From a virus, in IMG/VR virus record IMGVR_UViG_3300024306_000040, positions 1-47,404 of that record: a DNA stretch of 47,404 nucleotides; one strand, written 5' to 3'. Below the pieces are notes generated by a model. The model searched no databases, was not told the origin of the DNA, and saw only the letters and a list, made by a program, of their open reading frames with translations. A program made the translations under genes and the position numbers. Positions within the stretch are counted from its first letter, which is position 1. Each line of letters starts with the position of its first letter. Positions 3,193-37,000 of the stretch are shown piece by piece.

Positions 3193-6018
3193 TTAAATGT
3201 TAAACATGTCTTTGCTTAGACCTCTAGTAACGCTTAGTTGGCGCTCGGCAACATTAAACGATTCTCGATTTACTCTTAGAAGTTGATCCATCTTAGTATT
3301 TAACTGTGCAAGCAATGACTCGGCGGATTCTTGAGCTTGGGTCGGAGACTTTGGAGCTGCTGGATTAGTAGTTGAACCACCTCCACTTTCTCTGGCTTGA
3401 CGCTCGGCTGCTTCTTTGGCTTTTTTAGCTCTTTCTTCTTCGCTGACCGCTGCAATTTCTCTTCTAGTAGTATCTGCACCTGCAGAAGCCGAAGCAGGGG
3501 CTGGTTCTCTTCCTACAGTTTTAGCTGCCTGTGGAACTAAATCACTTCCTTGTTGTGTTGCTACCTGTTTCAATAATGAAATAGAATCAGTAGTGTTATA
3601 ATCAACATTTGCTAGTTTCTTTTCTGCTTCTTCTGCTTTATCAGCAATCTCTTCTTTTTTGTCTGCATGTTTTTTGTCAGCAGCCAAACTAGCTCCTTTA
3701 ATTGATAAACCATTCTTGAACAGTGTTTCTTCTTTCTTAGCAAGATTCTCTTCGATATCTTTAGCATTCTGACGACGAGCTTCTTTTTTCTTGTTATCAG
3801 CTTCTTCTTTTGCGGCCTCGGCTTTTGCTTCAGCTTCTTGAGCTTCTCTGTTTTTCCTCATACGCTCAGCCATGTCTTTTTCAAGCTGAGTTGCTTCCTC
3901 GCTATTCTTTTTTCGTTCTTCCTGTATGTCTTTAATATCTTTATCGTAGTCTCCACGCATACCAGGAATAGCATTTAGGAAAACTAATATACCTTCCTTG
4001 AGCATAAGGAACATAGACTTGAACTGTTTACCTAACCAGCTAAATGCATCAGACACAACCTGTGTATCACCACCTAGTTTTTTAAACACATAGATAGCAG
4101 CGGCGATGGCAGCAGCTATGGCTAAAAACGGCCACGTGGCTGCCACAACTCCTGCAATCAAAGGAATAAATGCTGCCGCAGTTGCAAATGCCTGTGCAGC
4201 AGTAGCTATCATCGAGGGAATCATAGAAGCGAGCTGTATAGCTTTCATTGTTACAAATGCTCCAACAACTCCTATCAATATTGGAGTTAGGTTATCTGCG
4301 ATAAACAATGCTACATTCTTAAAGATTGGAATAACATAATCTTTGATAACATTAGAAATCCATTCGAATGCAGGTTTGAGATCTTCCAAGGTAGTTTGTA
4401 TAGCTTCAACAAATGCAGGAATGACTTCGCCTATTATTATTCCTGTTAGTCGATTTAAAATAGGAAGAACGTTTGTTACAAAAAAATCTGCTAGAGCTGT
4501 AACTGCGGGCATTAAAAGATCAATAAATGTTGAACCTGCTGAGTTTATTACCTGAGCAAACATTTGAAAAATAGGCACAACAAAAGTCATTATTATATTT
4601 GCTACAAACTCAAAGGCTTTTAACAACAAATCTAATAGACCGCTATTAGCCAGAGCCATTTGAAAAGCGTTACTAAATTCTGCTAACCTTTGTTTAGTAG
4701 CTTCCATCTGTGCATTCATACCGTCAGTTTTCTTAGCAGCTTCTGCTTGTTGTTCTCCTGCTTTTTTAACAGCGTCTGTATTAATTTCTTGCGTACCTGC
4801 TAGAGCATTAACAGTCCCTGATAGCTCTTGACTAGCGGCACCTGCTGTTTTAATATTTTTTAGTGCTGCTCCGCCTTCTACTTTCATTAGATTGTTTAAT
4901 CTGTTTCTTTCTTCAACACTGATTGTTTCGCCACGTGCTATTTTAGCATTAAACTCTGCGAGCATGGCTGCTGATTTAGGCATCATGGCCATAATCTTTT
5001 GATTTTCTTCAGTGGTAGCAACACCGTTTGCCATAACGTCTTTGGCAAAGTTTTGTAGTGCGGGATTTTTAAACTGTAGAACTGTATCTCGAAAACTATT
5101 TCTTACTTCTTCACTGGCTCCGGCCAATGCTGCTTGGAACTGAGCATCTTTTGCTAGTGCTTCTGCTTGTGCTTCTTTTGCTTTGCGCTCTTCACCAGTT
5201 ATCTTGGCTAACGCATCCATTTCTTTTAGATAATTTTTAGCACCGCTGGCTAACTGTGCGTTTGTTTGATTACCTTGTAGACCTTGTTGTCTTAACAATG
5301 AACCGTACTTAGCGAGGCCTTCATTAATATCTTGAGTAGAATACCCAAGTGCATATAGTTCACCACTAGAGGTTCTTAAGGCTTTTGACACCTGTGCAAA
5401 TCTCTTTGCACCATCTTCAACCGTTGTTCCAAACCCAAGCATGCCAGCGCCGTTGTTTCTTATTAATGCACCAAAATCGGCCATTGTCATACCTGCTCCA
5501 CTGGCTGCGGCAGCAAACTGATTAACACTACCTGTGAATGTAGCTCCACTGGCTGCGGCATCTTGATATGATTTAACTACTCCAGAAGCTGCGGCTGCTA
5601 CCGCACTAAACATCGTTCCAACAATAGGAACCTTACTGAATACTGCGGCCGCACTGTTAACATCATCTCCTACTTTAGAAAACTGTTCTATGAGTTTTGT
5701 GCTACCTTCACCAAGCCCTACGATAGCACCAGTAGTCCATTTTACTGCTTTTTCAACTTTAGCAAATGCAAAACCTGTTGCGTAGGCTAGCTTTCCTAGA
5801 GATTCCAGGCCGCTACCAGCTTTAGATCCGCCGCCACCACCTCCGGTGTCGCCACCGCCACCACCGCCTTTGTCCCCAGGATTCTTTTTAAATCCCCCGG
5901 TTTCTTTATCGGCTTTTCTAACTACTTTTAATATTTCCTGTAGCGTGGCTTCAGAGGCCGCATTTTTGGCTTCTACTGTTCCAACTCCGGGTATGTCTAT
6001 TAGGACGGATGCTGCCAT
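3193..6018 (-). CDS. 29: Tail tape measure protein (gp29-like)
   Basis: This 941-residue protein has the usual make-up of a tape measure that sets tail length and is held in the tail tube. A short N-terminal domain (MAASVLIDIPGVGTVEAKNA, then LQEILKVVRKADK) is followed by a poly-Gly linker (about 46-66). Then comes a long Ala/Gly-rich helical region with predicted hydrophobic patches. A strongly hydrophobic block at about 480-690 could span the host membrane on DNA ejection. A charged coiled coil (about 715-830, rich in Lys, Glu and Ala) and a C-terminal helical tail follow. T4 gp29 is 590 residues. If most of the chain is extended helix (about 1.5 angstroms per residue) the tail would be roughly 140 nm; that is inference. 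The gene is divergent from gp26, its likely assembly partner. Confidence 0.8.
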   Translation of the reverse strand: MAASVLIDIPGVGTVEAKNAASEATLQEILKVVRKADKETGGFKKNPGDKGGGGGGDTGGGGGGSKAGSGLESLGKLAYATGFAFAKVEKAVKWTTGAIVGLGEGSTKLIEQFSKVGDDVNSAAAVFSKVPIVGTMFSAVAAAASGVVKSYQDAAASGATFTGSVNQFAAAASGAGMTMADFGALIRNNGAGMLGFGTTVEDGAKRFAQVSKALRTSSGELYALGYSTQDINEGLAKYGSLLRQQGLQGNQTNAQLASGAKNYLKEMDALAKITGEERKAKEAQAEALAKDAQFQAALAGASEEVRNSFRDTVLQFKNPALQNFAKDVMANGVATTEENQKIMAMMPKSAAMLAEFNAKIARGETISVEERNRLNNLMKVEGGAALKNIKTAGAASQELSGTVNALAGTQEINTDAVKKAGEQQAEAAKKTDGMNAQMEATKQRLAEFSNAFQMALANSGLLDLLLKAFEFVANIIMTFVVPIFQMFAQVINSAGSTFIDLLMPAVTALADFFVTNVLPILNRLTGIIIGEVIPAFVEAIQTTLEDLKPAFEWISNVIKDYVIPIFKNVALFIADNLTPILIGVVGAFVTMKAIQLASMIPSMIATAAQAFATAAAFIPLIAGVVAATWPFLAIAAAIAAAIYVFKKLGGDTQVVSDAFSWLGKQFKSMFLMLKEGILVFLNAIPGMRGDYDKDIKDIQEERKKNSEEATQLEKDMAERMRKNREAQEAEAKAEAAKEEADNKKKEARRQNAKDIEENLAKKEETLFKNGLSIKGASLAADKKHADKKEEIADKAEEAEKKLANVDYNTTDSISLLKQVATQQGSDLVPQAAKTVGREPAPASASAGADTTRREIAAVSEEERAKKAKEAAERQARESGGGSTTNPAAPKSPTQAQESAESLLAQLNTKMDQLLRVNRESFNVAERQLSVTRGLSKDMFNI

Positions 6019-6045
6019 CTTTAGTTTTCCATGGTTTTATGCGTA

Positions 6046-6053
6046 TATAAATA
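6046..6053 (+). promoter_or_regulatory. T4-type late promoter box TATAAATA upstream of gp26
   Basis: This is an exact match to the T4 late -10 element, on the plus strand, 36 bases before the gp26 start. Transcription would begin near 6059, leaving a short leader with the GGAG site at 6081-6084. The required sigma factor, gp55, is encoded at 14820-15665. Confidence 0.7.
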
Positions 6054-6072
6054 CTGGCATATGATACAATAT

Positions 6073-6080
6073 TATTTATT
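6073..6080 (-). promoter_or_regulatory. Possible late promoter box AATAAATA for the tape measure/portal operon
   Basis: The minus strand reads AATAAATA about 55 bases upstream of the tape-measure ATG. Together with the plus-strand TATAAATA at 6046-6053 it would form an overlapping divergent promoter pair in the 71-base gap. It is a one-base variant of the T4 consensus. Confidence 0.4.
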
Positions 6081-6089
6081 GGAGAAAAA

Positions 6090-6953
6090 ATGAGTGATCT
6101 AGAGAATGTCAATCAACCTAAAAAGAATCCCTTAGCGGGTTGGTACAGACAACCAAAACTATATGTAAAACTGCCTAGTAAAGGACGGTTTTATCCTCCT
6201 GGTGCTCTAGATGTCAGCACCAACGAAGAATATCCTGTATATGCTATGACAGCCAAGGATGAACTACTGTTTAAAACACCAGATGCTCTGCTTACTGGTG
6301 CTAGCACTGTAGAACTTATTAAAAGTTGTATACCTGCTATCAAAGATCCTTGGTTAATGCCTGCTATCGATCTTGATTTTGCACTGATCGCTATTCGAAT
6401 CGCTACCTATGGCGAAAAGATGGAGATCGATTCTAACTGTCCTTATTGTAATGCAGAAAACACCTATGACATTGATCTTAACAACTGGATGGCATTGTTT
6501 GCTGCATTTGAATACCGAGATATGATCGAAGTAGATCCCTTACAGATCTATATTAGACCGTATACATATCAAGAAGTTACAAAGACACAACTTAAGACTT
6601 TAGAGCAACAAAAGATATTCACAATCATCAATGATGAAAAGTTAACTGACGAGCAAAAAGTTGATCAGTTTGGCAAGAGCTTTGTCAAGCTCACAGAACT
6701 AACTGTTGAGATTGTAGCTGAGTGTATTAGTCGAGTCGTAACACCCGATGGTGAAACTACTGATAAAAAAATCATCAAAGAGTTTATCAATAACACTAGC
6801 AAGGATATCTTTGATCAAATACAAGATCGCCTTAAGTTGTTAAGAGAGCAAGTTGAGCTAAAAGCTCAAAATGTCCAGTGCGGAGAGTGTAAGGAAACGT
6901 TTGATATTCCTATCACTATGGACCAATCAAATTTTTTCGTAGTAAAATCTTAA
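6090..6953 (+). CDS. 26: Baseplate hub assembly protein gp26 (zero-frame product)
   Basis: This 287-residue protein is of the T4 gp26 / T4_baseplate family. In T4, gp26 is needed for hub assembly. The N-terminus contains QPKLYVKLPSKGRFYPPGAL (22-41), a strong family signature. ELLFKTPDALLTG follows at about 58-70, and a helical core after that. Two CxxC pairs are visible, CPYC at 117-120 and CGEC at 264-267, so a zinc site is plausible. GGAG lies at 6081-6084, five bases before the ATG, and a TATAAATA box is at 6046. The last codons run over a T-TTT-TTC heptamer (6932-6938). A -1 shift there opens a further 75-codon frame, so this gene likely gives two products of 287 and 358 residues. Confidence 0.9.
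   Translation: MSDLENVNQPKKNPLAGWYRQPKLYVKLPSKGRFYPPGALDVSTNEEYPVYAMTAKDELLFKTPDALLTGASTVELIKSCIPAIKDPWLMPAIDLDFALIAIRIATYGEKMEIDSNCPYCNAENTYDIDLNNWMALFAAFEYRDMIEVDPLQIYIRPYTYQEVTKTQLKTLEQQKIFTIINDEKLTDEQKVDQFGKSFVKLTELTVEIVAECISRVVTPDGETTDKKIIKEFINNTSKDIFDQIQDRLKLLREQVELKAQNVQCGECKETFDIPITMDQSNFFVVKS
6932..6938 (+). promoter_or_regulatory. Candidate -1 ribosomal frameshift site (T TTT TTC)
   Basis: In the gp26 frame the codons are AAT TTT TTC GTA. The seven bases T-TTT-TTC fit the X-XXY-YYZ slippery pattern in the correct phase. Slipping back one base gives TTT TTT CGT and enters the frame that stays open to 7165. That downstream frame is closed by TGA at 6902-6904 and has no ATG, GTG or TTG start near its beginning, so it needs another way in. 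Position close to the end of a tail-assembly gene matches the lambda G/GT logic. I did not establish a stimulatory stem-loop or upstream Shine-Dalgarno effect. Confidence 0.65.
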
Positions 6954-7165
6954 ATCTATCTCTGCCGGAGATTTTACAGGAATCTGCGAAACTAGACGCA
7001 CAGGCTAGAGAAATCAAAAAAGAAGCCATGAAGCTCTGTTGGTATATGCGCGGAATGAGTTTTTCTGAAGCTATGCATCTCAGCTATGAAGAAAGACAGA
7101 TCATAGGTGAGATAATCAAAGAAAATTTAGAAACTACTAAGAAATCTGGATTGCCGTTTTTTTAA
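6938..7165 (+). CDS. C-terminal extension of gp26 reached by -1 frameshift (tail assembly chaperone/gp51-like position)
   Basis: These 75 codons encode RSKILNLSLPEILQESAKLD and onward, ending KSGLPFF. The segment contains KKEAMKLCWYMRGMSFSEAM and LSYEERQIIGEIIKENLE, a plausible helical domain with normal amino-acid composition and the codon style of the neighbours. Joined to gp26 at the slippery site it makes a protein of 358 residues. The first in-frame ATG is at 7028-7030, too far in to cover the conserved-looking start; an ATT at 6905 with AAGGA upstream is a remote alternative. In T4, gene 51 (hub assembly) follows gene 26, and I infer a related role. The stop TAA (7163-7165) overlaps the stop of the opposing gene. 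Confidence 0.65.
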   Translation, partial: RSKILNLSLPEILQESAKLDAQAREIKKEAMKLCWYMRGMSFSEAMHLSYEERQIIGEIIKENLETTKKSGLPFF

Positions 7166-7563
7166 CGGAACTGTTTGTGGAACTGTTTGATAGCTTCAAT
7201 CTGCTGAGGATTAGCAGCTCTACCACTAAGTGCTGCTCTTAAACCTGACACCAATGCTTTAGCATCAATATCGTTAGAGGGTTTCATCTGCCCACTGGTT
7301 ATCTGATCTAGTACACGTTGTATAAATGTTTTGTCTGCTGAATAAAGAGCTTTACCTCGTATTACTAGATCTAGACTATTTTGTCCACTGCTCATAAAAG
7401 CGGCAGGATTCTGTATAAGATTAGGATCAACTTTTTCTTTATCAGAATCAGTGTTAATCCACGATAAAGGACTTAATAGTTTTTGACCAAACTTTTTTCC
7501 TTTATCGTAAGGATCTGTATTATCTATTTCTAGATTTTTTTCGATCAGTTCACTGATTCTCAT
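7162..7563 (-). CDS. Hypothetical protein, possible virion protein
   Basis: This is a 133-residue protein that I do not recognise. The N-terminus MRISELIEKNLEI resembles the short amphipathic leaders of packaged head proteins in T4-like phages, and the body is largely helical (IQRVLDQITSG, ALVSGLRAALSG, EAIKQFHKQF). Its ATG overlaps the stop of the upstream 389-residue gene by four bases (ATGA), so the two are translationally coupled. Its stop overlaps the convergent gp26-extension stop by three bases (TTAA at 7162-7165), with no terminator between the two transcripts. Confidence 0.7.
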   Translation of the reverse strand: MRISELIEKNLEIDNTDPYDKGKKFGQKLLSPLSWINTDSDKEKVDPNLIQNPAAFMSSGQNSLDLVIRGKALYSADKTFIQRVLDQITSGQMKPSNDIDAKALVSGLRAALSGRAANPQQIEAIKQFHKQFR

Positions 7564-8729
7564 TTTCTGAACAAGCTCGCACGACCGTTGACTAACTCAA
7601 CTTCAAATATCTCACGCTTCTTAGATTCAATCTTAGCTGCTAGTGCTTCGCTTAGACTGTTGCCTGTGCGAATAATGCTGTCGCTAGTTGGTCCCATGAT
7701 ACGCTCACGGTCAGCATCGATAGTAGCTTGATCAGGTGCTGCGCCTGGTGCTGGCTCTGCTGCACCTTTCTTAGCGGCACGAGCTTGACGTTTTCTGATA
7801 GCGCCAGGTGTTTGGCTAACTTGTCCGGCAACTTTGCCACCAGTGCGTTTTGGTGCTGGTGCTGCTGCGCCACCTGCTACTGGTTCTGCTGTTGCGGCTG
7901 CTGGTGCTGCTGTTGCGGCTGCTGGTTCTGCTGCTGGTTCTGAACCTGCTGGTGCTGGAGGAGCTCCCGGAGGAGTTGCTGCCGCTGCTGGTTCTGCTGC
8001 TGGAGCACCACCTGCTGCTGGTGCTGCTGCACCTGCCGCTGCTTTTTGGTCAGCTGGTCCAGGTTGTGCTAGAGATTTTTGTAGTAGCTGTAGGATACGT
8101 TGCTTGCCTTTCTTGTCTAGCTGGTTCAATGATGCTTTGACCTGTGCATAGACTGTCTGTCCTGCTTTTTCTGCACCTGCGCCTGCGGTAGCATCTGCTG
8201 TTTTCTTCATGGCTTGTGCTGCTGCACCTGTCTGTGCTTTTGCGGGTGCTGTACCTTTAGGACCTTGTGCATTAGCATCTGCGGCGGTAGTAGCTGGTGC
8301 TGCTGCGCCTCCGGCTGCATTACCGCCTGATACATTAACATTTGTTGTATTTCCAGGAGCTGAACCTGCGCCACCTGCTGCGGGTGCGCTAGCGCCACTT
8401 GCTGGAGCTGCTGCTGCTCCACCTGCAGGTGCTGCCGCTGCTGGTTCTTCTCCGCCTGCGGGTGCTGCTGCCGCACTTTTTGCGGGTGCTGCTGCGTCTG
8501 GAGCATCTGGATAAGGATCAGGATCGCCTGCTACTGTGGCTTTGCCAGTGGCATAACCTTTCTTGAAGGCTTTGCCAATACCTGCAACACCGCCTGCTAC
8601 GGCTCCTACACCTTTGGCCAATCCGCCTACCCCTTTGCCTACTGCTGTGCCTAGGCTTCCTAGAGGACCTTCTTCAAGATATTCTAGATGTTGTTGTTCT
8701 GATTCAGTTATGATTTCATTTAATTTCAT
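7560..8729 (-). CDS. Ala/Pro-rich protein, candidate internal head protein
   Basis: This 389-residue protein begins MKLNEIITESEQQHLEYLEE. Residues 1-9 resemble the capsid-targeting leader of T4 internal proteins. ITE-S (after residue 9) and LEE-G (after residue 20) fit the gp21 protease rule (I/L)-x-E before A/G/S. A Gly-rich hydrophobic stretch follows (about 21-65). From about 75 to 330 the chain is mostly Ala, Pro, Gly and Glu, encoded by GCN-rich triplet tracts. In the middle sits a helix (about 194-222, VYAQVKASLNQLDKKGKQRI) matching the end of the 494-residue neighbour. The last 40 residues are ordinary helix. ATG follows AGGAA. I infer a packaged or capsid-associated protein; function is unknown. 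Antisense frames across the Ala tract are mirror artefacts. Confidence 0.75.
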   Translation of the reverse strand: MKLNEIITESEQQHLEYLEEGPLGSLGTAVGKGVGGLAKGVGAVAGGVAGIGKAFKKGYATGKATVAGDPDPYPDAPDAAAPAKSAAAAPAGGEEPAAAAPAGGAAAAPASGASAPAAGGAGSAPGNTTNVNVSGGNAAGGAAAPATTAADANAQGPKGTAPAKAQTGAAAQAMKKTADATAGAGAEKAGQTVYAQVKASLNQLDKKGKQRILQLLQKSLAQPGPADQKAAAGAAAPAAGGAPAAEPAAAATPPGAPPAPAGSEPAAEPAAATAAPAAATAEPVAGGAAAPAPKRTGGKVAGQVSQTPGAIRKRQARAAKKGAAEPAPGAAPDQATIDADRERIMGPTSDSIIRTGNSLSEALAAKIESKKREIFEVELVNGRASLFRK

Positions 8730-25053: not shown

Positions 25054-28000
25054 ATGGCAGATAAAATTTATCCACAAAGTCAACTTCCAATAAGAAAGAC
25101 TAAAGATCTATTGCCGAATGTTTTCCAAACACCGGCAAATAATAAGTTCATGGCCGCCGTGGTCGATCCTTTGGTACAGCCAGGAGTCTTACAAAAAACT
25201 GCCGGTTATGTCGGTCGAAGATATGGAAAAACTTATCGTGGTAGCGACATATATCTTGATACAGACAATACATTACGTAGTAGATATCAAGTCGAGCCAG
25301 GAGTCATTTTTAGAGAAAATGAAACCATACAGAATTTTTATGATTATTTAGATGTAAAGAATCAGATAAAGTTCTTTGGAAACGAAGTTGATAGAGATTA
25401 TCTAACTACTAGCCAAGAACACTATAGTTGGAATCCCCCTATTGATTGGGACAAGTTTATTAACTTTAGAGAATACTATTGGCAACCAAGTGGTCCGCCT
25501 CCGTTGCAGATCTACGGACAGTCGGCAAAAATAACCAGCACTTATAAGGTAGAACTAGGGTTAGGATCATCTTGGGTTTTCAGTCCTGATGGTGTTACAA
25601 ACAATCCTAAGATAACACTGTACAGAGGTCAAACCTATAAGTTTAAGATCAATGCTCCTAGTGAAGCATTTGTGATCAGGACCAACCCTGATCTAGGTTC
25701 ATTGGTCTACAATCCAAATCTTGGATATAAGGCTGGATCAGTAGTTCTTTACAATGATCAACTTTGGAGAGCTAAAGTTGATGTGTTACCAGACGGCAGC
25801 ACTATCAATGTTGATAGTCAAGACTGGGAGCTTATCAGTATCAACGACTATAACTCAATCTTTGATTACAACGATGGTATAAAAAATAACAAGATAGAGA
25901 ACGGAACTTTAACATTTACAGTTCCCTATGATTCACCTGATGTATTGTTTTATCAGAGTGTAGTAAATCTTGATAGACAGGGTCAGTTCGTAATACAGTC
26001 AATAGTTGAAAATACCTACATCGATGTAACTAAAGATGTTCTAGGTAAATCTCAATACAAGAGCAGCAACGGCATAGAGTTTACTAATGGACTAGTTGTT
26101 GAGTTTATGGGCAAGGTCAGCCCTGAAAAATATGCAACGGATACTTGGTTAGTTGAGGGAGTTGGAAAAGCTATAACATTAACTAGATTTTCTGATCTTA
26201 TCGTTCCGGTATTGTCTACAGATGTTCCTGAAGTTTTGTTTGACAATGCACCGTTTGATGCTGAACCATTTGATGATGCATCTGCATATCCAGGACAACT
26301 TGATTATATCACAATATCAAAAAACAGCCAAGATTCAAATCCGTGGTCACGGTATAATCGTTGGTTCCATCGATCTGTTTTAGAATATGCTTATACACAG
26401 CGAGGACAAGATTTTCCTGCTGATGAAAATCTCAGAGCAAAACGACCTATCATAGAGTTTAGATCAAATATACAGTTGTACAACCACTGTTCTATTGCAA
26501 AGACTCAGGTTGATTATATCGATACCTTTACAGATGATATCTTTAGTAAAATAGAAGGTAGTTCCGGATATAACGTCGACGGCGAGTTTTTGTTTGAAGG
26601 TGCAAGAGTACTAGTGGTAGCAGATACTGATTCTTTAGCTAACAACAAGATCTATACTGTTCATTTTATAAAGTTTGGCAACAACACGCAGATTACACTC
26701 AAAGAAGCTACAGATTCTCAATCTGTAGTTGGCCAGGGTGTATTGGTTCGCCGCGGCAAATCAAACTCTGGATTGATGTATCATTTTACCGGAGAGAGTT
26801 GGGTCAAGAGTCAGGCCAAGACTACTGTAAATCAATCTCCATTGTTTGATGTCTATGATGAAAACTATGTTAGTTTTTCGGATCCGGAAACATATCCTAT
26901 TAGTTCTTTTAACGGCAATCCTTTAGTTAGCTACAAGATAGGCAACGGTCTGACAGATAGTCAGCTAGGATTCAGTTTAAGTTATCTCAATATTGATAAT
27001 GTTGGAGATATTCAGTTTAACTGGGACTTTGGTTCTGAAACAGTAAACTATACAATCGATAGACAAGCTCTTTCTAAAAAAGTTGCTGTAGGTTATTTTA
27101 AAGATAACTCAACAGGAGGGTACGATAACGGCTGGACACTTACAGACCTGACCTATATCCAACCGTTAATTGATAGTGTTACTATACAAGAAGCCACTAA
27201 CACCATAAAGTTGACCACTATAGATTGGGCGCAGGTCACGACTGAACCAGTTATTAACTTTTATCTCAATGGAGATAAGCTGACAGATAATCCATGGACA
27301 AGAAATAAAGATACTTTTACTTTCCAAGATTCTTTTTCTGTTAATGATATTATATCTGTAAAAATTGTTACAGATTTAGAACCAGTAACAGGTTACTATG
27401 AAATACCCGTTGGGCTAGAAAGGAATCCGTTAAACTCTCCATTGACTACATTTACGTATGGTCAAGCGATTGATCATATTGTTTCTGCTGTAGAGTTTGA
27501 TACTGAGTTTCAAGGAAACATCCCAGGCAAATCTAATCTTAGAGATCTTGATGGATATCAAGATAACGCCAAGAGATTTTTAACACATTCTGGTTTGACT
27601 CCAGTTGCGATCGCATTGCTCTGTGATAAGACTAATAACATCATTAAATCTCTGCAGTACGCTAAGAGATCATACACAGAATGGAAAAGTAACTTTATTA
27701 CCAAGGCGTTGGAAATAGAATACAACGAAAGTATTCCAGATTTTGTCGATGACATTATCAACGAACTATCAAGAACTAAGAACGGTGATTCGCCGTTCTC
27801 TGATTCTGATATGATCGGTTCCGGTGCATATTCTACTATTTCTTATACTGTAGAAGATACTGGAATAAAAACTTTTGCATTGTCTGCGCCATTTAGTTTA
27901 ACTACCCTGTCTAGGAAAGCAGTTTATGTATATCTAAATGATAATCAGTTGCTACACGGACGAGACTATACATTCAACGATACTTTTGGTTTTGTTAATA

Positions 28001-31000
28001 TATCTCTAGATCTGAATGAAAATGATCTAGTAGAGATAAGAGAGTATGTTTCAACAGCACATTGCTTTGTGCCACCAACTCCTACAAGTCTTGGTCTTTA
28101 CAAGAAATATACTCCGAGCAAGTTTTTAGATGATACTTACAAAACACCTACCGAAGTTATACAAGGGCACGATGGTAGTATAACTGTCGCCTACGGCGAT
28201 TTCAGAGATGATCTTCTATTAGAGATAGAATACAGGATTTACAATAATATTAAACAAGAGTATGATCATACTATTTTTGATATCGATGCTGTCTTGGGCG
28301 GATATTATGGTAATGCTATTTTTAATAAAGATGATTTAGATAATATTGTAGAACAGGAATTTTTAAAATGGATCAATAATACAAATATTGATTACACCAA
28401 CAATACCTATTTTACAGAATATGAAACATTTACTTACAGTTATACCAATATGACTGATCCTACAGGTAAGCAAAACTTACCTGGATGGTGGAGAGGAGTG
28501 TATAACTGGTTCTATGACACCGATCGCCCACACAGATGTCCTTGGGAAATCTTAGGATTTAGCCAAAAACCAATCTGGTGGGAAAAATATTATGGACCTG
28601 CTCCATACACCAGCGGCAATCTGATTTTGTGGGAAGACATACGAGATGGTATCATTCGAGAAGGAGACCGTGCTGGAACATATCTAAGATATGCTCGACC
28701 AACAATACTAAGTCATCTTCCTGTTGATGTAGAAGGTAAGCTTCTAAGCCCGCTTGAGTCTGGGCTAGCCAACGACTTTGTTCTTATCAATAATAGAGGA
28801 CCATTTAAGTTAGGAGATATATCTCCAGTTGAGTATGCATGGAGGTCAAGCTCAGAGTTTCCGTTTGCTATCACTATTGCTCTATGCCTATTAAAACCTT
28901 TCGAGTTTATAGGAGACAGCTTTGATCGCTCTCAGGTTAAGTTAAACAATCTCGGTCAGACTGTTAATGTTAATACAAATCTTCCTGTAACTTTAAATGA
29001 TATAAAAGTTCCTAAGACAGGTATACAGCAAGGAGCAGGATTAGTTGTCTACTTGATAGACTATGCTAAATCTAGAGGTGTTTCTTTAGATCTAGTCGAA
29101 AATAAAATAAAAAATATTGATGTAAATCTTACAACTCGACTAGGCGGTTTTGTTGATAAAGCTCAGCAGAAATATCTGTTAGACAGCAAGAATCCAAAAT
29201 CTACTTCTACAGGAGTTTATATTCCTGCAGAAAACTACGACATTATTTTTAATGTAAGTGCTCCTATTTCCACTATATCATACAGTGGTGTGATCATAGA
29301 AAAAACATTAAACGGTTGGTATGTTACAGGATATGATGATCTTCATCCATACTTTCCTTATTACGAACCGTTGGCTAGTCAAGGTGATCCATTAATCTCT
29401 GTTGGCGGAGTGAGCGAAACATTTTCAGATTGGACGCTAGGAACTTCTTATGCTAACGGTGTGATCGTTAGAAACAACAACACTTATTATAGGAGTTTGA
29501 TCACTCATACAGATTCATCTGCGGATGATCTAAACAACAAGACTATATGGAAGAAACTTCCTAAACTTCCTTTAGTTGGAGCAGTTGAAGCATTCAAGAG
29601 AAGAAACTTCAACTTCTCGGCAGTTAGCAAAATGAGCTATGGAACAGAGATAAATGAAATCCAAGACATAGTTAACTTCCTACTAGGATACGAAGCCTAT
29701 CTCAAATCTAGAGGATTTGTATTTGAAAATTATGATCCTGATAATCAAGTAAGCCAAGACTGGACCACTAGTTGTAAAGAGTTCATGTTCTGGACCAGAC
29801 ATAACTGGGCTATAGGATCGATTATCACATTAAGTCCAGCCTCTCAGAAAGTCTATATAAAGACTCCTGTTGGAGTAGCAGACAACCTGTTAGATGGCTT
29901 TTATGATTATCAGGTATTAAAGAGTGATGGTAAACCTTTACAGCCACAATATATCAACGTGGATCGACAGTTCCAAGAAATAACTGTTGAAACTACCAAT
30001 ACTACAGAGGGCATATATTATATTAGATTATATTATGTTCTAAAAGAACACGTAACAGTGTTCAGTGATAAAACGGTGTTCAGTGACATCATCTATGATA
30101 AACCAACCGGATATAGACAGCAACGAATCAAGAGTCTAGGATTCCGTACCACTGACTGGTACGGCGATTATACAAGTCCGGGTTTCTTATTTGACAACGT
30201 TGATATCGCTGTATGGCAACCATTTGTAGATTATAGACTAGGGGATATTGTTGCTTATCAGCAATACTATTGGGTAAGCCAAGTTAATCAAGAAGGATCA
30301 GAATCTTTCAATACTAATCTATGGACTAAACTAGATACAGTTCCAGAAAAACAACTGTTATCAAACTTTGATTACAAGATCAAACAGTTTGATGATTATT
30401 TTAATGTTGAATCACAAGGCATTGGAGAAACTCAGCGAGAGCTTGCACGTCATACTGTGGGATATCAGTCTAGAGAATATCTACAGAATCTCGCAGAAGA
30501 TCCAGTGACCCAGTTCCAGTTGTATCAAGGATTCATTAGAGAAAAAGGAACTATAAACTCTGTCAAGAAAGTTTTTGATAAAATAAGTCGCTCATCGGAA
30601 TCGGCATTAGTTCTTGATGAAGAGTGGGCATTTAGAGTTGGACGCTTTGGTGGTGTTGATCAACTTAAAGAATATGAAATAAAGATAGAAAAATCCGAGT
30701 TTCCATTAAATCCTCAGCCTCTGCTGTTTGTAAATTCTATTCCGTCTGTTTCTAGCGATCGTTATTATAGAGTTATTGGCAGTGATTTTACTATCTCCCC
30801 AACACCTTATACTACAAACATAAATCCTTTAAGTCTAGAGGCAGAACCTGAAAACACAGCAGGATATGTAGCAACATCTCAAGTTGATTTTGCTCTATAT
30901 AATGCAGACGCTATATTAGGTATAGACATTTCTACAGTTTCTGAAGGCGCACATTTTTGGCTTACATTTTATTCACCTGATTGGACCGTATGGAGATTCT

Positions 31001-34000
31001 CAGAAGCTGCAAACCTCAAGGTCGTTGATGCTGTAAAATCTGGGTTAACTGTTACTGTTACAATGAATCGCCGCCATGGGTTGACTGTGGGCGACATTGT
31101 AGGCTTTAGATCGATTCCTAACCTAACAGGATTTTATAAGATTACTGAAGTCAGTGATATGACTATTAGCGTTACTGTTACTCCTGCAGCACAGGATCCG
31201 GTTATTGACGGCAGCACAGTTACCAATGTAGGATTGTTTACTGAAGTTAGATTTGATACCTACGACATGGTTGATCCTGAAAAAGTAGCTTTGTGGAAAG
31301 AAGGATCTACTCTATGGGTTGACGATAATGGTAGCGGGCTGTGGGAAGTTATTAGAAAAACCAAACAATATTCTTTTGGAGAAATCAGTGAATATGGTTT
31401 AACATCACCACTGAGAACTGGTGCAGCAGTCTTTTATGATAATAGATCAAAAGAATCTATAGTTGGTATTCCGGGATCGGGCTATGCCGTTGTTTATTCT
31501 GATATTAACGGTGCATTGACTCCTAAGCAGATATTATCACCGCTGATCGAGTTTAGAACATTATCAATAGGATCATTCGGTCAGGCCATTACAGTAAGTC
31601 CAGACGGTCAATGGTTGGCTATTGGCGTTCCCTTAGCCAGTGGTGTTAAAAATACATATCTAGGACCATTTAGTTCTACAAAGAGTTATGCTCTTGAGGA
31701 TGTTGTCCTTTATGATGATATTTTATGGACACCTAACAAGTTTGTGTCACCTGATGGCAGCACTTTAACATTTAACACAGAAGATTGGGACCGAGCAACA
31801 AACATTGAAGCCTATGGAGAAGCCAGGGGAGATGGATTCTCAGAACAGGGAATGATTGTTCTTTATACAAGGACATCTCAAGGTTGGGATTATTATAAAA
31901 CTTTTGCAAGCCCAAGACCGGCAGCCGGGGAACTATTTGGTTCATCTATTAAGATGGCCAAGAGCGGTACATCATATTCGATGATAGTGTCAGCTCCTGG
32001 ATCTTTAGATGGCATCGGTCGAGTTTACGTATACAGTCATAACGGAACTGGATGGGAGATTGGCGAGATTCTTCCATCTGAACTAGCATTGAACAACTCA
32101 CTAGTTCAAGATAGATCTACTATGGCTCACGGTATACTTAACAGTGATGTTGAAATGCTAAAGATAGGAGACCAGTATGGCTCGGCGATAGCCATGAGCT
32201 ATACAGGTGATATTATTGCAGTTGGCGCTCCGTTTAGTGATGGACAGGTTTTTGATCAGTACAGAGGTGTGTGGAATTCTACTACAGAATACTTCGAAGG
32301 TGAAGTAGTACAGTATGAAGGATTGTACTATAAGTTAGCTCCAGACACATCAGATTCCACATATACTAATACCGGAACCAATCCGACAACATTGCCGTGG
32401 GTGTCTATTGGCGATAGTACGATGAATCCATCTGGAAAAGTTTTTGTTTACAAAAAAGAATCAACCGGTTACAGATTAGTGCAGACTATTGGTGCAGATA
32501 ATCTTTCTGAGTACAGCGATCTTTCTAAAGTAGAAACAATAAATGTAGGCGATCAGTTCGGTGCATCATTGGATTTAGATTGGTCAGGAACTACATTGGT
32601 TATCGCTAGTCCGCTGGGAGATATAAATCTACAGAATCAAGGTTCGGCCTATGTATTAAGATTAACAAACAATATTTTTAGAGTAAAACAAAAACTAGAA
32701 AGTTTTGAAGATTATCCTAATGAATATTTTGGACAGAGCATCTGTATAAGTGGAAATACAGAAAAAATTGTTATTGGAGCAAAGAATACTCCTTATCATG
32801 AGTCGGTTACATTCTTTAGCAAGGATGAAGGAACTACTACCTTCGATCACGGAGCTACAAGATTTAGTAAAGATTATGGTTTTGCCGGAGCAGTTTACGT
32901 ATTCGAGAGAAAAGCAGATGTTTATTTCTTAGCTGAAAAACTATCTGCTGATCTGTCATCGAACGAATCTTTTGGTTACAGCGTGTATTGTACACCAGAT
33001 AACATTTTAGTTGGTTCTCCTGATTATTATTCTAACGTATTAAATCAAAAGACCGGTCATGTGAGACTGTTCAAGAAACTAGAAAATGTAAATTCTTGGG
33101 AGATCCTATCGCAAAGAAGCTTAGTCGTTGATATAGAAAAGTTAAAGAGCATTTCTCTTTACGATGATGTAAACAATAAAAAAATACAAGATCTGGATAT
33201 AATCGATCCAGCTAAGGGTAAAATATTAAACGAAGCAGAACAAGAGTTAACTTTCAAAGTTCCTTACGATCCTGCTGTGTATTCTATTGGTACAGACTTA
33301 CAAACAGTTATACCATCGCAAGAATGGACTGATCATCATGTAGGAAAACTATGGTGGAATACATCTACAGCTAAGTGGATGTACTACGAACAAGGTGATA
33401 CATCTTATAGAGTAGGAAACTGGAGTAGACAAGTTCCTGGTTCTAGCATCGATGTTTATGAATGGGTAAAGACCAAACTGTTGCCTAGTGAGTGGGCCGC
33501 ATTAGCAGATACAAACAACGGAATAGCCAACGGTATCTCAGGACAACCTTTATATCCTAACGACGATGTCTATTCTCAACGTATTCTATATAATGCGTCG
33601 ACTGGTGCGGCAACAGAAACGTACTACTATTACTGGGTAAAAAATAAAACTATTTTACCTACTAATGTTATAGGCAGAAATATATCAGCATCAACAGTGG
33701 CTTCATATATTAATAACCCTATTGGTTCGGGAACAGCATTTGTAGGCATAGCAGCAGAAAATACTCTTTTGTTGTATAACTTCAAATCGATTATTTCAAC
33801 TGATTATGCTTTGTTGAATATAGAGTATAAGAAAGATACTAGTTCGTTAAACCCTGTACACAACGAATACCAGTTGATTAGAGAAGGGTCAACTCAAGGT
33901 GTTCCGTCTTATAAACTTGAAACCAAATGGATCGACAGTCTTGTAGGATACGATTCTGTTGGTAATAGAGTTCCTGATCCGGGACTGCCTGCGAAATTAA

Positions 34001-37000
34001 GATACGGAATCGAGTTTAGACCTAGACAAGGTATGTTTATTAACCGATTAACTGCACTAAGATTAACAGTCGATAATCTGAATGCATTCTTGTCAACGTA
34101 TCCGTTGACAGATTCATTGGACTTTACGTACCTAAATCTAGTCGATCCTGCCCCTAACAGCCAACTAAATCTCTATGATGTAGCAGTTGACACAGATATC
34201 GATCTTGAAACCGTAAGCACTACTCGTGTAGAACCTGCGATTTTGCAAGTGAATATCATAAACGGACAGGTAGATACTATTGATATAGTAAGCAAAGGTT
34301 TTGGTTACAAAGTAGTTCCACCAGTAATCATTGACGGAGATGGTGAACTAGCAGCAGCCGAAGCAACTATAGATTCACAAGGCAGAATAATATCTGTTAC
34401 GGTTACAACTAAAGGTAGAAAGTACAGTTATGCTTCTGCATCCATTAGACCTTTCTCAGTGTTGGTTAACAAAGATGCTACAGCCAATAACTTCTGGGGC
34501 ATATATGCCTACAACAGTGATAAGAAGACATTCTATCGCACAAGAACTCAGGCTTATGATACAACTAGATATTGGAGTTTACAAGACTGGTGGTTGACCG
34601 GTTATTCATCAGTTGACAGAATAGTCAAAGAGATTCCTAATATTTCATATCTAGGGTTTGTTACCACCTATGTAGGCGATATGGTACGTATAAAAGAATA
34701 CGCATCTGGCGGTTGGGCTGTATTGTTAAAAACTTCTGAAGGTAGCTCGAATCCGTCAGATGACTGGATGCTAGTAGGAAGAGAAAAAGGAACAGTTTTA
34801 TTAGAACCTTCTCTATACGATCCAACAGTTGGCGGAATAGGTTATGATAATAACAAGTCATACGATACTGCATTTTATGATCTTGAAAACGCTAAAGAAC
34901 TAAGAAATATTCTACGTGCAGTAAAAGATAATGCCTATAATCTAGGTTTCGGCGACCAATGGAGTAGTTTGTTCTTTGTAGCAGTTCGATATGTATTAAC
35001 AGAACAGAAATATGTTGATTGGATGTTCAAGACTAGTCTTGTTACTGCCACACATAATGTTGGAGCTTTTGAGCAGAAGTTAAACTATAAAAATGATAAC
35101 CTTGCGAGCTTCCAAGATTATATCAACGAAGTTAAACCATATAGAACAACAGTGAGAGAATACATTAGTAGGTATAATACCCTAGAAACAACAGGACTAT
35201 CTACTTCTGATTTTGACCTTCCACCTGCATATAATGTATCTGAAGGAAAAATAACATCAGTAACAGAAACCCAAGAAACGATTCAGAGATATCCATGGAA
35301 ATGGTGGCTCGATAATCATAGATATTCTATAACTGAGATTAGGTTGTCTAATCCGGGATCAGAATATAATTCACCGCCTACAGTTATTATTGACGGCGAC
35401 GGAACCGGCGCAACTGCAAAAGCCTACATCTCAAACGGATCTGTGTCTGGTGTTGAGTTGTTAACTGCTGGCTCAGGATACACAAGAGCTTCTATAAAAC
35501 TAGTTGGCGGCAACGGAAACAGCACCGATATAGCAACAGCAATACCGGTACTTGGTGATTCTAAAACTAGGACATTTAATCTTTCATTGAGATTTGATCG
35601 AGTTAATAAAGAATCTTCTTATTCTACTTTTACAAAGACAGATACTTTTGTTGCTGAAGGAAACAATGCTGTTTTTAAACTCAGCTATGCACCATCTAAC
35701 AATAAGAATAAGATCAACATTTTAAGAAATGGTAATGTTGTTTATAAAGATGAATATTCTGTAAAGATTTATAAAGAAGGTATAGACAACTACTCTTTAT
35801 TAAAAGGATCGGTAATCTTTGTTTCAGCTCCAAACAAAGGTGACAATATCGTTATTACCTACGAAAAGAACGATGAGTTATTGTATGCTGTTGACAGGAT
35901 AAACAAATATTATCTAACAGAATCATCATCGCCTACTGCTTCTGGAATGCTAGGAAAAGAACTTAATCAGTTAATGACCGGTCTAGACTTTGGTGGCGTC
36001 CAAGTACAAGGAACAACATTTGAAGTCACTGGTGGTTGGGATGCTCTACCTTGGTTTTCTGACAGCTGGGACAGTGTAGAATCATCAAATGACATTTATT
36101 TTAGGGCAGATGGAAGTACGGCATCGTATACTTTTGATGCACCTCCTGCTGCTGGCCAAATTTATAACATCTATATTAAGAGAAATGGTGACACACAGTT
36201 TATAAGAATAGACGATCCATATTTTAACCCTGCGCAAGATAGTTCTATGCAGACTAATCCTCATGCAGAAATACCTACCTTTATAGGGGATGGATCGACT
36301 TCTGTGATAATGCTAACTCCTTATTTGAGTTTAAATGCAGGTGATACATTGGTATTCAGACAAATCGAAAGTGATGGTTCTGTTACTATTAATGATTCCA
36401 ACATTTTAGACACAAAGATAAGTGGTGGCACATTAGCTGCTATGAGCGGAGCATATTCAACTGCTTCAGGTACTGCCGCAGAAGAAATAGTTCTAGAGGG
36501 TGGTAAATTTATAAGTCCTGAACAAGTTCCTGCACCTGAAGAAAATGTTCCTGGACAGGTACTAGATAGTCTTTCTATAAAAGTGTTTAATAACACAAGG
36601 TCGGGAGCCACTCCTCTTAACCACAGGACTATCTATTCAGATGGAATAACTTTAACTTATAAGATAGGACAAAAAATAATCGAAAATAGCTCTTTGTTAG
36701 TCTATATCAATAAGATTAAGAAAACAGAAACTATAGATTATTCTATCGATTATAAAGATCAAGAAATAACTTTAAACAGCCTAGCACCTGCGGGAAATAT
36801 TATTGAAATTATTTCTTTAGGTATTGGCGGCCACAATCTTTTAGATTATCAAGAGTTTGTAGCTGATGGTGATACTAGTTTATTTTTAACTGATGCAAAC
36901 TATACAGATACTACTTCAATATTTGTAACAGTAAATGGAATCTATAAGGAAACAGCATTCGTCAACAGTACAGGAGTTGTTGATTCTCAAAATAGAACAT

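Follow-up and report, generated by a model that had tools for sequence, protein, structure and literature searches.

Frameshifting is reportedly conserved in several groups of T4-like phages, and T4 itself is said to use genes 26 and 51, in the account attributed to Vladimirov and colleagues. In phage lambda, the G part of gpG and gpGT binds the tape measure protein, and neither protein is found in mature virions, according to the relevant passages of PMC5009743. As summarized in PMC10885494, frameshifting is replaced in some T4-like phages by two chaperone genes, one short and the other a longer fusion (Vladimirov, Gautam & Davidson 2022, Virology 566:9-15), and PMC12846349 credits the same study with poly-T frameshift signals in the TAC-N genes of T4-like phages. 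Thus, going by these summaries, a frameshifted T4-like chaperone is already reported in principle. The passages of PMC3004832 that deal with T4 gp26 and gp51 list the two proteins as hub assembly chaperones. In the main text of Sullivan et al. (PMC3037559), the gp51 of cyanophages and of marine vibriophage is described as being without the first ~200 residues of T4 gp51, and Aeh1 is named as the sole T4-like phage of that set without gp51.

Here we describe a gene 26 locus from a virus that belongs to an environmental clade of large phages. The window, by which we mean the whole stretch of DNA analyzed, comprises 47,404 nucleotides (positions 1 to 47,404 of IMG/VR virus record IMGVR_UViG_3300024306_000040). 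Sequence comparison makes it very likely that its gene 26 encodes a tail assembly chaperone in two lengths, the longer of them produced by -1 frameshifting.

The gene 26 homolog and its putative slip site

As read from the sequence, a gp26 homolog of 287 amino acids is the zero-frame product of positions 6090-6953 on the plus strand (Table 1). It matches PF12322 (T4_baseplate) with 62.2 bits against a curated cut-off of 24.5 (E = 7.3e-17), and phrog_150 (baseplate hub) with an E-value of 1.4e-22. The 3' end of the gene reads AAT TTT TTC GTA GTA AAA TCT TAA. The sequence-only reading had placed a T-TTT-TTC heptamer near this end in the correct phase for -1 slippage, and direct reading of positions 6932-6938 confirmed it, the phase of T_TTT_TTC being X_XXY_YYZ, as required for a simultaneous -1 slip. 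The remaining layout that it had described was likewise recovered: the -1 frame is shut upstream by a TGA, stays open for 75 codons, and has no usable start near its beginning, the earliest ATG, GTG or TTG lying at 7028, 30 codons into the domain. The -1 frame translates as RSKILNLSL...LPFF, and the predicted product lengths of 287 and 358 residues (283 + 75 after the slip) proved correct. Inspection by eye upstream of the heptamer found no Shine-Dalgarno-like stimulator.

Table 1. Features of the gene 26 locus, in window coordinates.
Feature	Position	Strand	Basis or remark
Divergent neighbor, 941 aa, probable tape measure protein	3193..6018	-	Same position in Phosso, Paride, XaC1, Munch
gp26 homolog, short TAC-N-like zero-frame product	6090..6953	+	PF12322 T4_baseplate; phrog_150 baseplate hub
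TGA shutting the -1 frame upstream	6902..6904	+	Sequence
Slippery heptamer T_TTT_TTC, in the gp26 frame	6932..6938	+	Sequence; conservation in relatives
-1 frame C-terminal (TAC-C / gp51-C-like) domain, putative	6938..7165	+	75 codons (6938-7162) + TAA 7163-7165
Stem, 5' arm	6942..6951	+	Core 6946-6951, 7-nt spacer after heptamer; fold, pairing across relatives, RNAalifold
Zero-frame stop TAA	6951..6953	+	T 6951 is the final base of the stem 5' arm; AA in the loop
Stem, 3' arm	6968..6977	+	Coding in the -1 frame only; covariation of +7/+34

On the preferred reading, most ribosomes would terminate at the zero-frame stop and yield the short form, and a minority would slip back one base on the heptamer, helped by a hairpin that lies a few bases downstream and spans that stop. 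The slipped ribosomes would then read 75 more codons, giving the 358-residue form with an all-helical C-terminal domain. We infer both that slippage occurs and that it is the less frequent outcome.

Conservation of the heptamer and the -1 frame in IMG/VR relatives

The motif alone is not rare, as TTTTTTC occurs 19 times in the whole window against an expectation of 14.95 +/- 4.08. Its placement is more restricted: an in-frame TTTTTTC within the last 20 codons arose in 0.19% of 20,000 codon shuffles of gp26. A scan of IMG/VR gave 370 relatives, and the best 80 of these, which are the closest relatives (58-100% identity), were analyzed. Four of them (L001-L004) are identical to the window over 6000-7400 and may be the same virus, so that at most 76 of the 80 are independent. 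The heptamer is kept in 79 of these 80 loci, the other one (L066) being truncated by the contig end before the heptamer. L066, whose gene is truncated by the contig end, was excluded from the counts, and so were L069 and L075, in which this truncation falls within the -1 frame. The -1 frame is open in all 77 complete loci, and its length from the heptamer is 77 codons in 73 and 78 codons in 4. The comparison of relatives for the heptamer and the -1 frame, a check that the sequence-only reading had proposed, came out in its favor. Conservation settles the doubt, and the layout of the slip site is not due to chance. A one-base sequencing error as the cause was considered and rejected as not credible, because the relatives share the same two-frame layout.

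Selection on the -1 frame and its predicted domain

One alternative to frameshifting would leave the 287-residue protein as the sole product, with the -1 frame open merely by chance or in decay. At the given base composition, a 77-codon open frame has a probability of about 0.002, which is small but not zero. The pattern of substitutions speaks against such an origin. Downstream of the overlap, pN/pS is 0.243 in the -1 frame but 1.32 and 1.46 in the other two frames, and the third positions of the -1 frame hold 55.5% of the differences. These values were obtained from 50 unique sequences, all from those relatives whose -1 product has 77 residues (73 of the 77 complete loci, within the best 80 of 370). 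For 8 of these 50, the tested stretch still includes the gp26 stop, a few bases from its edge. In addition, no premature stop is found in the 77 complete IMG/VR -1 frames from the same best 80, and a confident helical fold is predicted for the domain. The -1 frame is therefore protein-coding, with purifying selection in that frame alone, and its decay or chance origin is scarcely credible.

The AlphaFold2 model of the -1 domain is all-helical with a mean pLDDT of 90.1, and that of gp26 has a mean pLDDT of 82.1. In BFVD, the gp26 model hits proteins of the baseplate and the baseplate hub from myophages, both T4-like and other (best E = 6.8e-22), and the best match of the -1 domain of the window (E = 0.012) is to small unnamed phage proteins. 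Its best hits in Pfam (E = 0.086) and PHROGs (E = 0.27) were treated as chance. Among solved structures, a Foldseek search of the PDB with the gp26 model gave nothing under E = 0.001, and a sequence search with the gp26 of the window gave nothing under E = 0.28. The VIA comparison of the gp26 model returned matches no better than unrelated helical chains. The only match of T4 gp26 to solved structures by sequence, a 13-residue zinc-finger stretch (best E = 0.0025), was set aside.

A covarying stem beside the heptamer

A downstream RNA structure is usual, although not obligatory, for chaperones made by frameshifting. In the window, the single-sequence fold of the stem that adjoins the heptamer has an energy of -8.2 kcal/mol and a modest z of -1.91, and more information comes from comparison. 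Across 44 distinct sequences, 94.1% of the cells of the ten pairs 6942-6951/6968-6977 are paired and 5.9% are unpaired, and pairing falls to 32-53% when the partner is slid by 1 to 3 columns. Both-side changes were counted in 30 cells, and none of 500 shuffles was as high either for these or for pairing; further pair types do not stand out, since 179 of the 500 shuffles had as many. The shuffle control ignores the relatedness of the sequences. RNAalifold retains the inner six pairs as a core, which starts after a 7-nt spacer.

The strongest signal comes from the pair +7/+34 after the heptamer (window 6946/6973), which is GC in 22, AU in 21 and GU in 1 of the 44 sequences. In the mutual-information test, which used 41 of the 44 stem sequences, this pair scored 0.85, with 0.41 for the next column for the same position, and it is the top covarying pair after correction within columns 0-60. 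Six parsimony changes of the pair were counted on the gp26 tree. As read from the alignment, +7 and +34 each fall on the third base of a -1 frame codon, Lys AAA/AAG and Ile ATT/ATC respectively, and selection on the -1 frame protein therefore does not explain their covariation. The pair +4/+37 also covaries (UA in 32 sequences and CG in 6), but the mutual information of column +4 is slightly higher with +28 (0.52) than with +37, its partner (0.44). When 75-nt segments are folded, the stem is not the minimum-energy structure in several sequences, L001 included, for which other folds are preferred. A conserved covarying stem adjoins the heptamer, and it would act on slippage as a stimulator.

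A different structure was seen in Atu_ph07 (L082, 4823-4897), where the 75 nt after the heptamer have a strong predicted fold of -30.7 kcal/mol, unlike the stem of the window clade.

Named phages of the T4 superfamily

To place the locus in a wider context, we used 18 named phages that were hand-picked for diversity rather than sampled at random, from Kyanoviridae, Straboviridae, rhizobial, Caulobacter, Stenotrophomonas and jumbo phages (L084, a near-copy of L083, was excluded). All 18 have an in-frame heptamer in the 60 nt that precede the gp26 stop (TTTTTTC in 13, TTTTTTT in 4 and TTTTTTG in 1), and in all 18 the -1 frame is open after it, with the phase X_XXY_YYZ kept throughout. A gene is annotated right after gp26 in 15 of them, in every case in the -1 frame, with starts that lie between -1 and +104 nt, counted from the gp26 stop. 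The phages with no annotated gene at this place are Paride, AS-yj and Aeh1. None of the 18 feature tables has a joined coding sequence at gp26. The downstream gene is called gp51 or "baseplate hub assembly catalyst" in P-SSM2, S-SSM5, syn9, HTVC008M, EniLVp02 and phiN3. In eight of the loci (L101, L102, L105, L106, L109, L111, L082 and L088), the downstream starts vary widely, and several of the genes look truncated by gene callers requiring a start codon.

These annotations bear on a second alternative, namely that the -1 frame is a stand-alone small gp51-like gene. Once gp26 has terminated, ribosomes would reinitiate on it or use a non-standard start, and no frameshift would be involved. The own-start gene in 15 of the 18 public records is in its favor. 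So is the finding that nine of the 18 phages have a -1 frame ATG no more than 10 nt from the gp26 stop, at -1 in Phosso and Atu_ph07, +2 in Cr30, EniLVp02, Marzo, phiN3 and RL2RES, +5 in P-SSM2 and +8 in S-SSM5. In these nine phages, a separate product besides the fusion is possible. However, six of the 18 have no ATG, GTG or TTG up to 32 nt past the gp26 stop, and in the window none occurs in the -1 frame before 7028. Among 56 distinct IMG/VR relatives (from the best 80 of 370), 12 lack any start in the interval that runs from the upstream -1 stop to 15 codons beyond the heptamer. A start is present there in the remaining 44, but it is an ATG in only 14, at -45, +24 or +42 nt from the heptamer and thus in no fixed place. 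As the start positions vary while the heptamer is kept, a separate start is not a conserved feature, and a stand-alone gene would give no reason for keeping the heptamer and the covarying stem. We therefore consider this alternative unlikely.

The same heptamer could also be a site of transcriptional slippage, in which stuttering of the RNA polymerase on the T6 run would give mixed mRNAs and hence the fusion. The site is indeed a T6 run, and in four of the named phages the heptamer consists of T throughout (T7). A run of six T is short for polymerase slippage, however, and both the X_XXY_YYZ phase kept in 18 of 18 named phages and the covarying stem, whose core lies 7 nt downstream, fit a ribosomal mechanism with its stimulator, which makes transcriptional slippage a very improbable account. 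The preferred reading, -1 ribosomal frameshifting as put forward in the sequence-only reading, draws support from the conservation of the heptamer and of the -1 frame, from purifying selection in the -1 frame alone and from the covarying stem.

Relation to T4 gp26 and gp51

T4 gp26 and gp51 both belong to PF12322 (E = 8.8e-64 and 3.9e-52), which makes them paralogs, and gp51 has an additional C-terminal stretch. Genes 26 and 51 are divergent neighbors in T4. No slippery heptamer is present in the last 60 nt of T4 gp26, and its -1 frame is interrupted by a stop ~10 nt short of the gp26 stop, continuing from there into gene 25. That T4 keeps 26 and 51 as separate proteins, as had been noted beforehand, holds in the form of two paralogous genes. 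The proposed link to T4 gene 51 also gained support, given the shared family of gp26 and gp51 and the match of the gp51 C-terminus to phage -1 domains. Specifically, the profile of this C-terminus aligns with that of the -1 domains of 13 phages, comprising cyanophages and further T4-like phages, at an hhalign probability of 96.4 (E = 1.3e-9).

The profile search of the 75-residue segment against gp51, which had been suggested from the sequence, gave a mixed outcome. The -1 domain of the window matches T4 gp51 directly with an hhalign E-value of 0.093, which is weak, and a profile that joins the -1 domains of the window and the jumbo phages reaches 0.079. Through intermediates the connection improves, as the joint profile matches the cyanophage-type profile with E = 0.0013, but with a probability of only 18.7. 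Profiles A2, A3, A4, A5 and A6 were built from selected rows and not from all loci. Eight -1 domains were scanned against PHROGs, and phrog_634 ("baseplate hub assembly catalyst") was matched by four of them, none from a jumbo phage. Among the four jumbo ones, the -1 domains of XaC1 and Munch match phrog_18291 (unknown function), and those of Phosso and Paride gave nothing in PHROGs better than E = 0.3. The -1 domain of the window appears to be equivalent to the gp51 C-terminus, mainly on the basis of its position, the shared FF-R junction and the shared heptamer.

One copy of PF12322 was found in each of the 14 named frameshift phages searched and in all five records of the window clade (some of them partial), and two copies were found in T4 and in two T4-like records; the search covered 14 of the 18 named phages, with S-SSM5, HTVC008M, Melnitz-2 and RL2RES outside it. 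Because gene 51 of T4 is a divergently transcribed paralog and not the gene downstream of 26, the T4 arrangement looks like a duplication with in-frame fusion, rather than a frameshift gene split in two. On balance, we lean toward an evolutionary scheme in which frameshifting would be ancestral to the whole T4 superfamily, including the jumbo phages, and T4 genes 26 and 51 would have arisen by duplication and in-frame fusion, dispensing with slippage. Under this scheme, which we hold with some reservation, many of the proteins called gp51 in cyanophages and their relatives would not be separate gene products but the latter part of a protein made by frameshifting; in the window clade, a hairpin over the zero-frame stop would set the ratio of the two forms. 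The polarity, with frameshifting ancestral and duplication derived, is read solely from the distribution of the two arrangements.

The cyanophage proteins named "baseplate hub assembly catalyst" are a case in point, since the annotated gp51 of P-SSM2, S-SSM5 and syn9 is encoded in the -1 frame after gp26. In Aeh1, an unannotated gp51-like -1 frame lies directly after gp26 (L103, 2199-2378) and matches phrog_634 with E = 2e-14; the heptamer is present, the frame is open, and its first start codon lies 50 nt past the gp26 stop. If gp51 is the -1 half of a frameshift gene, both the truncation of cyanophage gp51 and its absence from Aeh1 would be explained. Unlike the frameshift reading given here, the main text of PMC3037559 treats cyanophage gp51 as reduced separate genes, and the word "frameshift" is absent from that text.

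Neighboring genes and the putative chaperone role

The product of the divergent gene next to gp26 is probably the tape measure protein. Within a set of 11 proteins, phmmer related it to the Phosso neighbor (E = 3.6e-12) and to that of XaC1 (E = 1.3e-6), and no similarity to T4 gp29 was found in this set. It has five putative membrane-spanning hydrophobic segments, and T4 gp29 and the Phosso neighbor have one each by the same rule. In Cr30, the annotated tape measure gene lies two genes after gp26 on the same strand, with a hypothetical gene and the -1 gene between, and in HTVC008M it is likewise on the same strand, two genes after gp26. On the other side of the locus in the window, a convergent 133-aa open reading frame (7162-7563), whose stop overlaps the -1 frame stop, is without a convincing family match in Pfam or PHROGs, and the following 389-aa frame (7560-8729) is very rich in Ala, Pro and Gly and mostly of low complexity. 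Further away, a single open frame of 4525 aa (25054-38631, plus strand) is far longer than the surrounding structural genes.

By analogy with lambda gpG/gpGT, the N-terminal part shared by the two forms would bind the tape measure protein, and the long form would use its additional domain to recruit tube subunits. A chaperone role for gp26 is suggested by this analogy together with the listing of T4 gp26 and gp51 as hub assembly chaperones. On the other hand, genetic work cited in PMC3004832 is described there as placing T4 gp26 in the hub itself, which counts against a pure chaperone, as such a protein would not need a location in the hub.

Comparison with known chaperone systems

The locus extends a known kind of system and does not open a new one. 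With it, the T4-type frameshifted chaperones would gain a large environmental clade and several jumbo phages, and several doubtful public gene calls would fall within them, offering a possible explanation for why gp51 seems truncated in cyanophages and missing in Aeh1. The stem and the heptamer together form a compact and directly testable element. The open-licence literature found, which does not extend to Vladimirov et al. 2022 itself, makes no mention in the relevant passages of the stem or of the environmental clade.

In the structure comparison, the HK97 chaperone (2ob9_A) aligned with the gp26 model at Z 6.4 and rmsd 4.8 over 99 of 107 residues, at rank 40 and tied with unrelated chains, which makes it a lead and no sign of homology. 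The lambda slip site differs from T_TTT_TTC, and the tape measure candidate of the window is divergent, unlike the lambda-type arrangement. The principle proposed here is nevertheless that of lambda gpG/gpGT, where, as described in the relevant passages of PMC5009743, a -1 slip near the 3' end of the chaperone gene adds a C-terminal domain to a minority product. The TAC locus of Vandenendeviridae and Andersonviridae, as presented in the pertinent part of PMC12846349, has a conserved poly-T -1 frameshift at the TAC-N 3' end, as proposed here, although in these other phage families the motif is GTTTTT and not TTTTTTC. Close in kind, too, are the TAC-N and TAC-NC proteins of T4-like phages, which in the available summaries are two lengths of one chaperone, as proposed for the window, whereas T4 itself has two paralogous genes and no frameshift.
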